Shown: positions 48,038-50,827 of the stretch, piece after piece
Layout of the letters: every line of letters begins with the position of its first letter
Position numbering within the stretch: the first letter of the stretch is position 1
Assembly: GCF_003260995.1 (NCBI RefSeq)
Contig: NZ_CP030040.1
Coordinates: forward strand, 3,398,130-3,448,956
Direction of reading: 5' to 3'
Length of the DNA: 50,827 nt
DNA from: Acetobacterium sp. KB-1
Lineage (GTDB): Bacteria; Bacillota; Clostridia; Eubacteriales; Eubacteriaceae
Notes under the pieces: model-generated
Told to the model about the DNA's origin: nothing
Seen by the model: only the letters and a program-made list of their open reading frames with translations
Database searches by the model: none
Translations under genes and position numbers: made by a program

Positions 48038-48760
48038 ATGTTTAGAATAGGAATTTGCGATGATCAAAGAGCCATCTGTTCTCAAATGGAAGGGATTATT
48101 TTGGACCATCGAAATATGTTTGCGGAGGAAGTCGAAATCGATGTGTTTTATTCCGGTGAAAGACTGGCAGAGTTTATAAAACATGAACATGATTTCGATT
48201 TGATTTTTCTGGACATCGAAATGGAAGGGCTAAACGGCCTTGATTTAGGCCGGAAAATTCGTGAAGAGATGGATAATCAAACGATGCAGATTGTCTATGT
48301 GTCTGGGAAAGAAAATTATTATAAGGATCTTTTTGAGGTGCGACCCATGCATTTTCTTTCAAAGCCCATTGAACCAGCAATACTGATAAAAGACATTAAC
48401 CTGGCAATGAAATTAAGCGGCTGCCTAGGTGGCGTTTTCTGTTATCGAAAGGGAGCCGTAACATATAAGATTCCCATCAAAGACATTCTCTACTTTCAAA
48501 GCGTGAATCGGGAGATTAAGATTACCACGACAACAGGGGAAGATTTGTTTTATGGGAAGCTACGAGATGTCACCCCCCAGCTAGAAGGTGATCAATTCAT
48601 GAAAATTCATAAATCCTATCTAGTTAACTATGAGCATGTAGTAAAATTCAAGTATGACGAGGTCAGGATGTCCAATTCGGACTGTCTGCCAATTAGTCAG
48701 CTAAAGCGGAAAGAAATCAGGGGTTTGCAAATGCGATATGAACTCGAAAGGTTGGAATAA
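48038..48760 (+). CDS. agrA: LytTR response regulator (AgrA-like)
   Basis: A 240-residue response regulator. Receiver domain with acidic CDD at 7-9, phosphorylated Asp59 in FLDIEM, and LSKP. C-terminal LytTR DNA-binding domain (about 135-235) with IKDILYFQSVNREIKITT and FMKIHKSYLVN. Paired with an AgrC-type kinase and an AgrD gene, so it should activate the agr locus. AGAGGTG site. Its stop overlaps the kinase ATG (TAATG). Confidence 0.88.
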   Translation: MFRIGICDDQRAICSQMEGIILDHRNMFAEEVEIDVFYSGERLAEFIKHEHDFDLIFLDIEMEGLNGLDLGRKIREEMDNQTMQIVYVSGKENYYKDLFEVRPMHFLSKPIEPAILIKDINLAMKLSGCLGGVFCYRKGAVTYKIPIKDILYFQSVNREIKITTTTGEDLFYGKLRDVTPQLEGDQFMKIHKSYLVNYEHVVKFKYDEVRMSNSDCLPISQLKRKEIRGLQMRYELERLE

Positions 48761-50037
48761 TGGAGCTAAGTACCTATGAAGTGGTATATCTGATAGCTAA
48801 TATTTTTGGAACATATATCGTTTATAAATTTATGCATGTATTCTTTGAGACCAAAGAAGCCAATCATAAGATAGAACTCTTATCCTATGTGGGATATTAC
48901 ATATTTATTGCGCTGGTATATTTGACGATTAATATACCGGCAATTATGATAATCAGTAATATTCTTGCTTTTTTAGGTCTGTCATTAAACTATAAAGTAG
49001 GAATTAAAAAACGGCTTCTATCAGTATTTTTGATTTATTTGATTGTAATGTGTGTCGAACTGATTGTTGGATTGCTTTCAGGATATTTTAATTTTCCTTT
49101 GATGTCCACTAACAATTATTCCTCAGAATATGGGCTGATTATAGTTCAAATCATATTGTATTTTGTCGTTCGAGTTTTCAATAATTACAAAAATATCAGA
49201 CTAGGAGAAACAATCCCGCTGGCCAATTGGATCGCAATTATTTTGATCCCGATTTCATCCTTATATATCATTTTAACCTTATTTCAAGCAATAGGTTTGT
49301 CCTGGAAGCAAGTTCTAATCGGAGTAGTATTGATACTACTTGTCAATTTCACAATCTTTTATTTGTATGATGTCATTTCAGCTTTCATGGTCGATAAAAT
49401 GGATAAAATCATGGTTGATCAGCAAAATAAATACTACCAAAAACAATTCGAACTAATGGAGTCATCATTAAAAACAACGAAAGCAATGCGGCATGATCTG
49501 CGAAATCACTTAGCGGTTATCTATGCATTGGTTGAAAAAGGGGAAAGAGACGCTGCTTTAAAACATCTAACAAAGATGACTGATGTTTATGACGATAAGA
49601 AACAATACGCGTGTACCGAAAACATTGATATTGACAGTATTTTGAATTTTAAAATTCAGGAAGCAGCGCAACAAAATATAAAAATAGCGCTTGATCTGAG
49701 TATTCCCGAAAAAATGAGTATTGCATCATTTGATTTGGCGATAATTTTAGGAAACCTGCTGGATAACGCCATTGAGGCCGTTGCTGAGATGGAAAAAGAA
49801 AGACAGATAAAAACAAACATAAACTATGACAAAGGGCGTTTAATTATTCTGGTGGAGAATCCATATCTGGGTGAACGTGTAAAAGTCGGCAATCGATATC
49901 TTACAACCAATAAAGAGCCAAGCCAACATGGTTTAGGCCTGGAAAATGTAAAAAGTGTTTTACAAAAATACGATGGGACGATGGATATTACCCAGCGGAG
50001 TAATATCTTTTCGGTTTCCCTGCTGTTGTTTGTATAG
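48760..50037 (+). CDS. agrC: AgrC-like sensor histidine kinase
   Basis: A 425-residue GHKL histidine kinase. About six membrane segments in the first 210 residues form the peptide sensor. Phospho-His lies in KAMRHDLRNHLA near residue 245; ATP-binding N box LGNLLDNAIEAV and HGLGLENV follow. It should sense the cyclic peptide from the agrD gene downstream. TAATG overlap with the response regulator. Confidence 0.88.
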   Translation: MELSTYEVVYLIANIFGTYIVYKFMHVFFETKEANHKIELLSYVGYYIFIALVYLTINIPAIMIISNILAFLGLSLNYKVGIKKRLLSVFLIYLIVMCVELIVGLLSGYFNFPLMSTNNYSSEYGLIIVQIILYFVVRVFNNYKNIRLGETIPLANWIAIILIPISSLYIILTLFQAIGLSWKQVLIGVVLILLVNFTIFYLYDVISAFMVDKMDKIMVDQQNKYYQKQFELMESSLKTTKAMRHDLRNHLAVIYALVEKGERDAALKHLTKMTDVYDDKKQYACTENIDIDSILNFKIQEAAQQNIKIALDLSIPEKMSIASFDLAIILGNLLDNAIEAVAEMEKERQIKTNINYDKGRLIILVENPYLGERVKVGNRYLTTNKEPSQHGLGLENVKSVLQKYDGTMDITQRSNIFSVSLLLFV

Positions 50038-50079: not shown

Positions 50080-50200
50080 ATTTGAATAAAATAAAAAATC
50101 TTAGTTCACTACAAAAAAATATAGTAATTTCAACATAATATCGCACAAATAAAAATATATGGTAGATTTAGGACATAAAAGATAAAAAGAGGAGGTTGTT

Positions 50201-50344
50201 TTGAAAAATCTATCATTAAAGTGCTATCGGGTTATTGCGGCTATGGCGTTGATGGTAACAACGTTAAACGTTAATACGGCTTGTTTTTTTATTATGCACC
50301 AGCCCAAATTACCTGAGGGTGCAGATAAACTCAGGAAGTTCTAA
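50201..50344 (+). CDS. agrD: AgrD-type cyclic lactone autoinducer peptide precursor
   Basis: A 47-residue AgrD-like precursor. TTG start five bases after GGAGG. Basic, amphipathic leader (1-24), then NTAC-FFIM-HQPKLPEG: Cys28 followed by FFIM (29-32), then the acidic PKLPE recognition tail cut by AgrB. The predicted thiolactone ring is Cys28 to Met32 (C-F-F-I-M); tail residues before Cys are open. S. aureus AIP-IV has ring C-Y-F-I-M. Order agrD then agrB differs from the S. aureus BDCA order. The agrB ATG overlaps its stop (TAATG). Confidence 0.88.
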   Translation: MKNLSLKCYRVIAAMALMVTTLNVNTACFFIMHQPKLPEGADKLRKF

Positions 50345-50586
50345 TGAGAATCGCAATAACTGAGAGAATTACAGATATCCTTGTAAGCCATGAAATTATT
50401 ATAGAGGAGAACAGAAATTTGTATACCTATGGATTACAGCAAGGACTGTTGATGATCCTCAACATTGCTACGATTCTGGGAATCGGGATTGTGTTAAATA
50501 TGGTTTGGGAAAGTATTATTTTCCTCTTAACATATGTTCCACTTCGGGGAATAGCGGATAGCGCTATAGATAAATATAAACGTTAG
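50344..50586 (+). pseudogene. agrB: Truncated AgrB (peptide-processing protease), 5' part
   Basis: An 80-codon reading frame. Residues 1-68 match the AgrB N-terminus: ITERITDILVSHEIIIEENR, YTYGLQQGLLMILNIATIL and FLLTYVPLR. Intact AgrB has about 190-210 residues and continues PLR with the AGGYHA region holding the catalytic His and, further on, Cys. Here the sequence diverges after PLR (about 50547) to GIADSAIDKYKR and stops. Both catalytic residues are missing, so this copy cannot process AgrD. A rearrangement or deletion near 50550 is likely. Confidence 0.75.
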
Positions 50587-50607
50587 TTATCCTCTTGATA
50601 TGAGTAG

Positions 50608-50827
50608 CGTTATATAACATTTACAGAAGGTGTTTCTGTTTCTATACTTGCTGGCGTTATTGCAGCAGTTATGCCATATATAGGACCAGCTGGAGTAATT
50701 GCTTCAATGAGTTTTGGATCATTAGCTGCAATTGCGGGTCCTTCGATTGGATCAACTGTAAATTATAGTCTTTATAGATTTTCTTCTTTATATTATAACA
50801 ATATAAAAATTAATTGGTCTCTCTATA
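50608..50827 (+). other. Hydrophobic reading frame running off the window edge
   Basis: From just after the stop at 50605-50607 a frame stays open to the end of the window (73 codons). It reads FTEGVSVSILAGVIAAVMPY and IGPAGVIASMSFGSLAAIAG, then NYSLYRFSSLYY. The first ATG in frame is at 50668 with no clear ribosome-binding site. It is not AgrB. It may be the beginning or an internal piece of a gene joined here by the same rearrangement that truncated agrB. Family not recognised. Confidence 0.4.

Follow-up and report, generated by a model that had tools for sequence, protein, structure and literature searches.

An Acetobacterium agr cassette with a predicted CFFIM ring and a truncated agrB

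In an intact Agr system, as known from other species, AgrB cleaves the precursor AgrD behind its ring and links the ring to the cysteine as a thiolactone, AgrC binds the exported peptide, and AgrA alters transcription. Cyclic lactone autoinducers form the family described by the model TIGR04223. In Staphylococcus aureus, AIP-I and AIP-IV both carry a YST tail, and AIP-IV reads YSTCYFIM (PMC5007282, excerpt). Excerpts of PMC10482373 state that removal of the three tail residues of AIP-1 abolished its agonist activity, that competitive inhibitors of AgrC may vary in sequence, and that an Asp-to-Ala exchange in the AIP-1 ring produced a strong cross-group inhibitor. For S. aureus AgrB, R70, G75 and H77 are described as required for proteolysis and C84 as the active-site cysteine (PMC10196373, excerpt). 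In Listeria, the five-residue ring CFMFV was shown with a synthetic peptide and mass spectrometry (PMC4916163, excerpt).

Here, we analysed a window of 50,827 nucleotides (C1:3398130-3448956 of the host genome, G000) that ends just behind an agr cassette. The original prediction had pointed to a precursor whose ring lies one residue from AIP-IV and had read this as convergent or shared signal chemistry with possible cross-talk or inhibition; it overlooked the adjoining agrB and its truncation. The observation was right, while the biological inference largely fails: the gene encodes an ordinary Agr precursor, its ring is common to a few Acetobacterium, and the processing peptidase is truncated. 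Among the titles listed in literature searches there was no study of Acetobacterium agr and nothing related to CFFIM; the single paper that brought together Acetobacterium, quorum sensing and agrB mentions the genus solely among its references, and searches on clostridial AgrD, AIP-IV cross-inhibition, ring surveys and agrB-deficient listeners listed nothing on this locus.

The cassette and its precursor

The genes lie on one strand in the order A-C-D-B (Table 1). AgrC and AgrA belong to the two-component systems, with a GHKL kinase domain (PF14501) in the former and a receiver (PF00072) and LytTR domain (PF04397) in the latter, all over cut-off. AgrC is full length, since it aligns over residues 1-425 with its counterparts in the relatives G001, G003, G004 (contig C81), G009 and G013. 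The conserved block upstream of agrD, a candidate AgrA operator region, occurs once in the genome outside the N stretch described below when up to three mismatches are allowed, and a generic promoter scan placed no site within it. The host genome is a single contig of 3,988,268 bases and is 99.99% complete. At this locus the host is nearest, among named relatives, to Acetobacterium tundrae DSM 9173 (G013) and the Acetobacterium MAG STD2_190 (G004), so that the earlier description as an acetogenic Clostridium holds for the acetogen and gives way to Acetobacterium for the genus.

Table 1. Positions of the agr features in the window
Feature	Position	Strand	Evidence or remark
agrA, response regulator, 240 aa	48038..48760	+	PF00072 57.5 bits, PF04397 70.9 bits, each above its cut-off
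agrC, membrane sensor kinase, 425 aa, GHKL ATPase	48760..50037	+	PF14501 81.7 bits
Block nearly invariant among relatives, upstream of agrD	50101..50134	+	Candidate AgrA operator region
agrD, signal precursor, 47 aa	50201..50344	+	TIGR04223 50.6 bits, cut-off 19
Predicted ring codons Cys-Phe-Phe-Ile-Met	50282..50296	+	Motif position; boundary inferred from relatives
agrB remnant, 80 aa, without catalytic half	50344..50586	+	PF04647 positions 2-65 of 185
Break point, end of similarity to relatives' agrB	50546..50547		Same in seven loci, six genomes
DNA of no traced origin joined to agrB	50547..50827 (window end)		blastn against 11 relative loci gave no match

The agrD reading frame, with the exact bounds originally given, starts with TTG, and its product matches TIGR04223 (quorum_AgrD) with an E value of 1.4e-13. 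No Pfam family matched the product at E ≤ 1, hence neither did the AgrD model PF05931. As predicted, Cys28 is followed by FFIM and then by HQPKLPE, which gives the AgrD layout of a cysteine (serine was also accepted as first ring residue), a short hydrophobic ring and a proline-rich tail (CFFIM-HQPKLP); the relatives share this layout. The motif C-x4-[HYNF][QEK]P-x2-P occurs at a single place in the six frames of the window, namely at agrD. Because of this unique motif and the adjoining agrA, agrC and agrB remnant, agrD is, by its sequence context, more than a chance reading frame.

The residues preceding Cys28 are N-T-A. Among the relatives the leader NTA-C and the tail QPKLP are fixed and the residues between them vary, which supports a five-residue ring; the boundary that had been proposed is thereby backed, as it is by homology with Listeria CFMFV. 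Sequence comparison likewise bore out that the predicted ring CFFIM lies one residue from the CYFIM of AIP-IV. The exact S. aureus ring C[D/Y]FIM is thus not present, and N-T-A stands in the precursor where the exocyclic Y-S-T tail would be expected. Elsewhere in the genome, the sole PF05931 match is a 49-aa open frame at 733838 (E 0.87); no agr gene was recognised by eye among its flanking ORFs, and it was rejected as a second AgrD candidate.

Truncation of agrB in the assembly

The frame following agrD matches the AgrB family (PF04647) with 51.6 bits, over the cut-off of 23, and the match is confined to the N-terminal positions given in Table 1. In blastn comparisons with 11 relative loci, similarity stopped at L002:4676, which is base 50546 of the window, in all seven loci that retain agrB (G001, G003, G004 twice, G009, G012 and G013; six genomes). 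The agrB ORF of six of these loci encodes 187-194 aa (232 aa where it is extended upstream), and the seventh (G004 contig C77) encodes 151 aa when read from the first start codon in frame. Just past this end point, all seven have the stretch GG[YC]HAKTQ[LV]RC, its cysteine variant (GGCHA) only in A. tundrae. In the remnant, the frame departs from that of the relatives at codon 68 and is only 80 residues long, and no counterparts of the S. aureus catalytic residues G75, H77 and C84 were found. Counting residues, the relatives' AgrB proteins place the counterparts at R68, G73, H75 and C82, with a constant offset of two from S. aureus; on that basis the remnant would keep the R70 counterpart and lose the other three. 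Compared with its relatives (the distant G013 left out), the remnant carries six synonymous and five non-synonymous changes unique to this genome, a slight change that is compatible with a recent truncation.

No second AgrB above the PF04647 cut-off was found in the single-contig genome outside the N stretch, and a relative's full AgrB used as query returned only the remnant and one weak match (E 0.004, 29% identity). The weak match, which pairs residues 13-77 of the query with a 676-aa frame, was not counted as AgrB. The same applies to three weaker PF04647 matches, which cover positions 87-173 of the profile and lie in frames of 392-407 aa, and to one of 12.9 bits (E 0.11, positions 62-96) in a 75-aa frame opposite longer ORFs. 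Since the catalytic part of agrB is gone and no other AgrB exceeds the cut-off, this strain is not expected to produce a thiolactone. The truncated agrB thus argues against a secreted cyclic peptide from its AgrD, and cross-talk by this organism is not supported.

Besides lacking blastn matches, the DNA beyond the break gave only weak tblastn matches in the 11 relative loci (E ≥ 2.3), and its open frame had no Pfam match at E ≤ 1. No direct repeat of at least 9 bases is shared by the two visible flanks of the break. Immediately behind the window, 1932 bases (L002:4958-6889) read N in the genome record and lie outside all searches. At L002:7158-7213, where there is a gene for a DUF3267 putative zincin-peptidase, the sequence again resembles G001, G012 and, to a lesser degree, G013. 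The cargo behind agrB differs from relative to relative, being an ORF of 234 aa in G001 and G004, of 261 aa in G012 and of 210 aa in G003, while A. tundrae has a 66-residue GG-leader-like peptide followed by a C39 peptidase ORF. The break in the present genome falls where this variable zone begins, so that the truncation may plausibly have come from an exchange of cargo in which agrB was clipped.

Two further observations come from other genomes. The A. tundrae segment L043:8861-10197 combines the GG-leader-like peptide, a DUF3267-like protein and the C39 peptidase ORF and is possibly a bacteriocin module adjoining agr; the 66-residue peptide scored 13.3 bits against PF10439 (Bacteriocin_IIc), below the cut-off of 27.1. 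At G056:C222:8380-8595, in a genome of the same taxonomic order, a short AgrB match covers profile positions 2-73 in an open frame of 89 aa, which may represent another agrB truncation or the end of a contig.

Rings and receivers in Acetobacterium and other Clostridia

An agrD of this type was found in 8 of 19 Acetobacterium genomes (E ≤ 6.4e-17), with a ninth, weak match in G018 (E 0.0258). G000 and G013 each encode the ring CFFIM once and G004 encodes it twice; the other rings are CFVFM (G003), CWFFM (G012) and CVFFF (G001 and G009); in G010, a glycine replaces the cysteine before VYFF. Throughout, N[VI]NTA before and QPKLP after the ring are fixed, and the four residues after the cysteine and the next one (H/Y) vary. 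In A. tundrae and STD2_190, CFFIM stands beside a retained agrB, which marks it as a predicted signal type within the genus Acetobacterium.

The receptor side shows a related pattern. In the AgrC sensor domain, all three complete FFIM cassettes (G000, G004 C81 and G013) share SGYFNFPL-x3-NNYSSEYGLIIVQI, and the FVFM and VFFF cassettes differ from this loop segment. Although the AgrC of A. tundrae is one of the least similar to that of G000 (77% over 210 residues), its segment 106-140 is 83% identical, compared with 69% for the FVFM and 54% for the VFFF cassette. Against a clean rule stand G010 (VYFF) with 77% and G018 (ring unread) with 74% over the same segment, as well as an orphan AgrC in G001 that has an FFIM-type loop although the agrD of G001 encodes VFFF. 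The covariation of ring and AgrC loop, drawn from few sequences with three FFIM cassettes, is therefore only suggestive.

The locus is often incomplete. All four agr genes are full length and side by side in 4 of the 9 agrD loci of the eight genomes (G003, G004 C81, G009 and G013), a count that leaves out partial extra copies in G010. The G010 cassette (L061:4430-9323) has agrC in two frames, the Cys-to-Gly AgrD, a scrap of agrB and an integrase-core (transposase-like) ORF. In G001, fragments of agrA and agrC adjoin an intact agrD-agrB, and a complete agrA-agrC lies downstream without agrD-agrB. In G012, an agrC fragment precedes agrD and a complete agrA-agrC is found on another contig, a separation that may be an assembly split. 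The agrD leader is frameshifted in G012 and in G004 C77; frameshifts in G004 may be errors, because this MAG has about fivefold coverage.

Some of these loci hold additional copies. The G001 region (L041:4700-12500) is a duplicated agr region with complementary losses, and L061:4430-9323 of G010 also bears further partial agrD-like copies. Moreover, G010 has a second agrD (L223, G010:C1:663201-663511) near an intact AgrB match at 662637. Its ring, CFLFV, is one residue from Listeria CFMFV as given in the excerpt of PMC4916163.

A search for CFFIM-type AgrD cores, proposed along with the original prediction, was carried out as a scan of the genome collection with the pattern C[DVYF]FIM-xxP[KE]xP, in which the tail was fixed as P[KE]xP. 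Within this scope of P[KE]xP tails, and with the window's own genome records maybe left out, it returned 17 stretches, comprising three AgrDs, all from Acetobacterium, and 14 chance-like matches. Among the latter, CVFIM of Ligilactobacillus salitolerans (L079) lies in a 30-residue frame with no AgrB-like ORF recognised by eye next to it, and the other 13 non-Acetobacterium matches were judged by eye not to be AgrD-like.

To place the likeness to S. aureus in a wider frame, rings were read from 391 sampled Clostridia genomes, 107 of which had a TIGR04223 match at E ≤ 1e-4. Among the matches listed, 128 loci were read, leaving out the window's ring, that of G001 and the VYFF locus of G010; a ring was obtained for 103 and none for 25. 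Rings starting with serine (34 of the 103) were compared by their four following residues. Four of the 103 differed from a S. aureus ring by at most one residue (S-YFIL, S-MFLL, C-SSTF and C-SSLF), and CSSLF (L250) is identical to the AIP-II ring. Drawing positions independently from the 88 distinct rings, 1.6% came to lie no more than one residue away from one or other of the four S. aureus rings, and 0.55% when only groups I and IV were considered. None of the 103 was equally close to group I or IV with the cysteine in place, S-YFIL having a serine. The match between CFFIM and AIP-IV would accordingly be uncommon for one ring and expected among many. The CSSLF AgrD is itself flanked, at L250:56-2666 (G110:C3, Clostridia), by an AgrB (PF04647, 122.9 bits), a GHKL kinase and a LytTR protein.

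With four look-alikes among 103 rings and CFLFV near the Listeria ring, near-identity of rings is poor evidence of shared signalling. The likeness of CFFIM to AIP-IV looks like a coincidence in a fast-changing hydrophobic ring. Convergence with or transfer from S. aureus is not needed to account for it, given a precursor of TIGR04223 type with no PF05931 match and the frequency of look-alikes. The broken agrB, the several hydrophobic rings within Acetobacterium and the N-T-A in place of Y-S-T all speak against shared signal chemistry, which is not supported. Because competitive inhibition tolerates sequence variation, it is conceivable that CFFIM with a short tail, if secreted by A. tundrae or the STD2_190 organism, would inhibit S. 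aureus AgrC in vitro; activation is unlikely, by analogy with the known AIPs.

Explanations and comparison with known systems

We consider it very probable that the locus is an agrA-agrC-agrD-agrB cassette of Acetobacterium whose sending half is broken and whose ring resembles AIP-IV by coincidence. A rearrangement at base 50546 would have cut off the catalytic half of agrB and fused the rest to unrelated DNA, with agrD, agrC and agrA left intact. Most likely, the strain makes no CFFIM ring, and it may respond to CFFIM from other Acetobacterium; judged from its genes, it probably cannot make the peptide and might sense it. Counted against this explanation are the 1932-base N stretch, which could hide a displaced agrB end or another gene, the slight decay of the agrB remnant, and the 0.55% expectation for a ring like those of groups I and IV; despite the N stretch, the visible agrB frame ends at 50586. 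A truncation that is an assembly or sequencing artefact, or an agrB end lying inside the N stretch after a recent insertion, appears improbable. The break is 281 bases from the N stretch, and the relative G056 likewise has a short AgrB match at positions 2-73. However, the genome is a nearly complete single contig, the conserved downstream genes resume past the N stretch, and the joined DNA is no simple indel and finds no match in the 11 relative loci; even after an insertion, the gene would still be broken.

That the strain makes an AIP-IV-like CFFIM thiolactone which activates or inhibits S. aureus AgrC is more improbable still, and we give it very little credence. The intact AgrD, the single residue that separates its ring from CYFIM, and the tolerance of AgrC inhibition together with the Asp-to-Ala AIP-1 inhibitor (PMC10482373, excerpt) would allow for it. 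Set against these are an agrB that ends before the catalytic residues with no substitute above cut-off in the genome outside the N stretch, the missing Y-S-T tail, look-alike rings that are not rare in Clostridia, and an AgrD of TIGR04223 type with no PF05931 match. The question whether the remaining genes still have a role is evenly poised: with agrB lost, they may be roleless and bound to decay, agrC and agrA being intact only because the loss is recent. The repeated decay at this locus, with fewer than half of the agrD loci complete and G010 heavily decayed, fits this, and so does the little-changed remnant, which agrees with a recent event. On the other hand, neither agrA nor agrC is shortened, both encode the domains expected of them, and the block ahead of agrD has been preserved. 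In addition, G001 and G012 (the latter maybe through an assembly split) carry a complete agrA-agrC apart from agrD-agrB, indicating that receivers persist on their own.

Returning to a cassette with a broken sending half, one may extend it, tentatively and with considerable doubt, to a strain that acts as a natural eavesdropper, having lost the sender and kept an FFIM-type AgrC and AgrA, with which it would respond to the CFFIM peptide of co-occurring Acetobacterium. In this doubtful extension, the locus would be a genus-wide site of repeated sender loss, at which rings and receptor loops are exchanged along with the secreted or bacteriocin-like genes that follow agrB. Provided that the intact receiver is functional, sender loss and listening in Agr could be studied in Acetobacterium, in a non-pathogenic setting. 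More generally, a S. aureus-like signal does not follow from a ring that differs from AIP-IV by one residue, as look-alikes occur in Clostridia, and an AIP should be assigned to a strain only once the adjoining agrB has been checked.

In comparison with S. aureus agr group IV, the locus shares a ring one residue off and the general logic of AgrB, AgrD, AgrC and AgrA. In contrast, its precursor has no PF05931 match, no Y-S-T and the tail HQPKLPE, its agrB is broken, and its gene order is A-C-D-B instead of the agrBDCA given for S. aureus in the excerpt of PMC4916163. Listeria monocytogenes AgrD (TIGR04223, CFMFV) resembles the present precursor in family, in a cysteine followed by four hydrophobic residues, in a P-K-x-P-type tail and in a predicted ring of five residues (PMC4916163, excerpt), whereas the ring CFFIM, the order A-C-D-B and the truncated partner agrB set the present locus apart. 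The cassettes of A. tundrae DSM 9173 and MAG STD2_190 have CFFIM, synteny, full-length AgrA and AgrC and the AgrC loop segment in common with it. They differ in that they retain an agrB with the catalytic region, of 194 and 187 aa, respectively, and the second STD2_190 locus (C77) differs from these in its agrD leader frameshift and short-started agrB frame.
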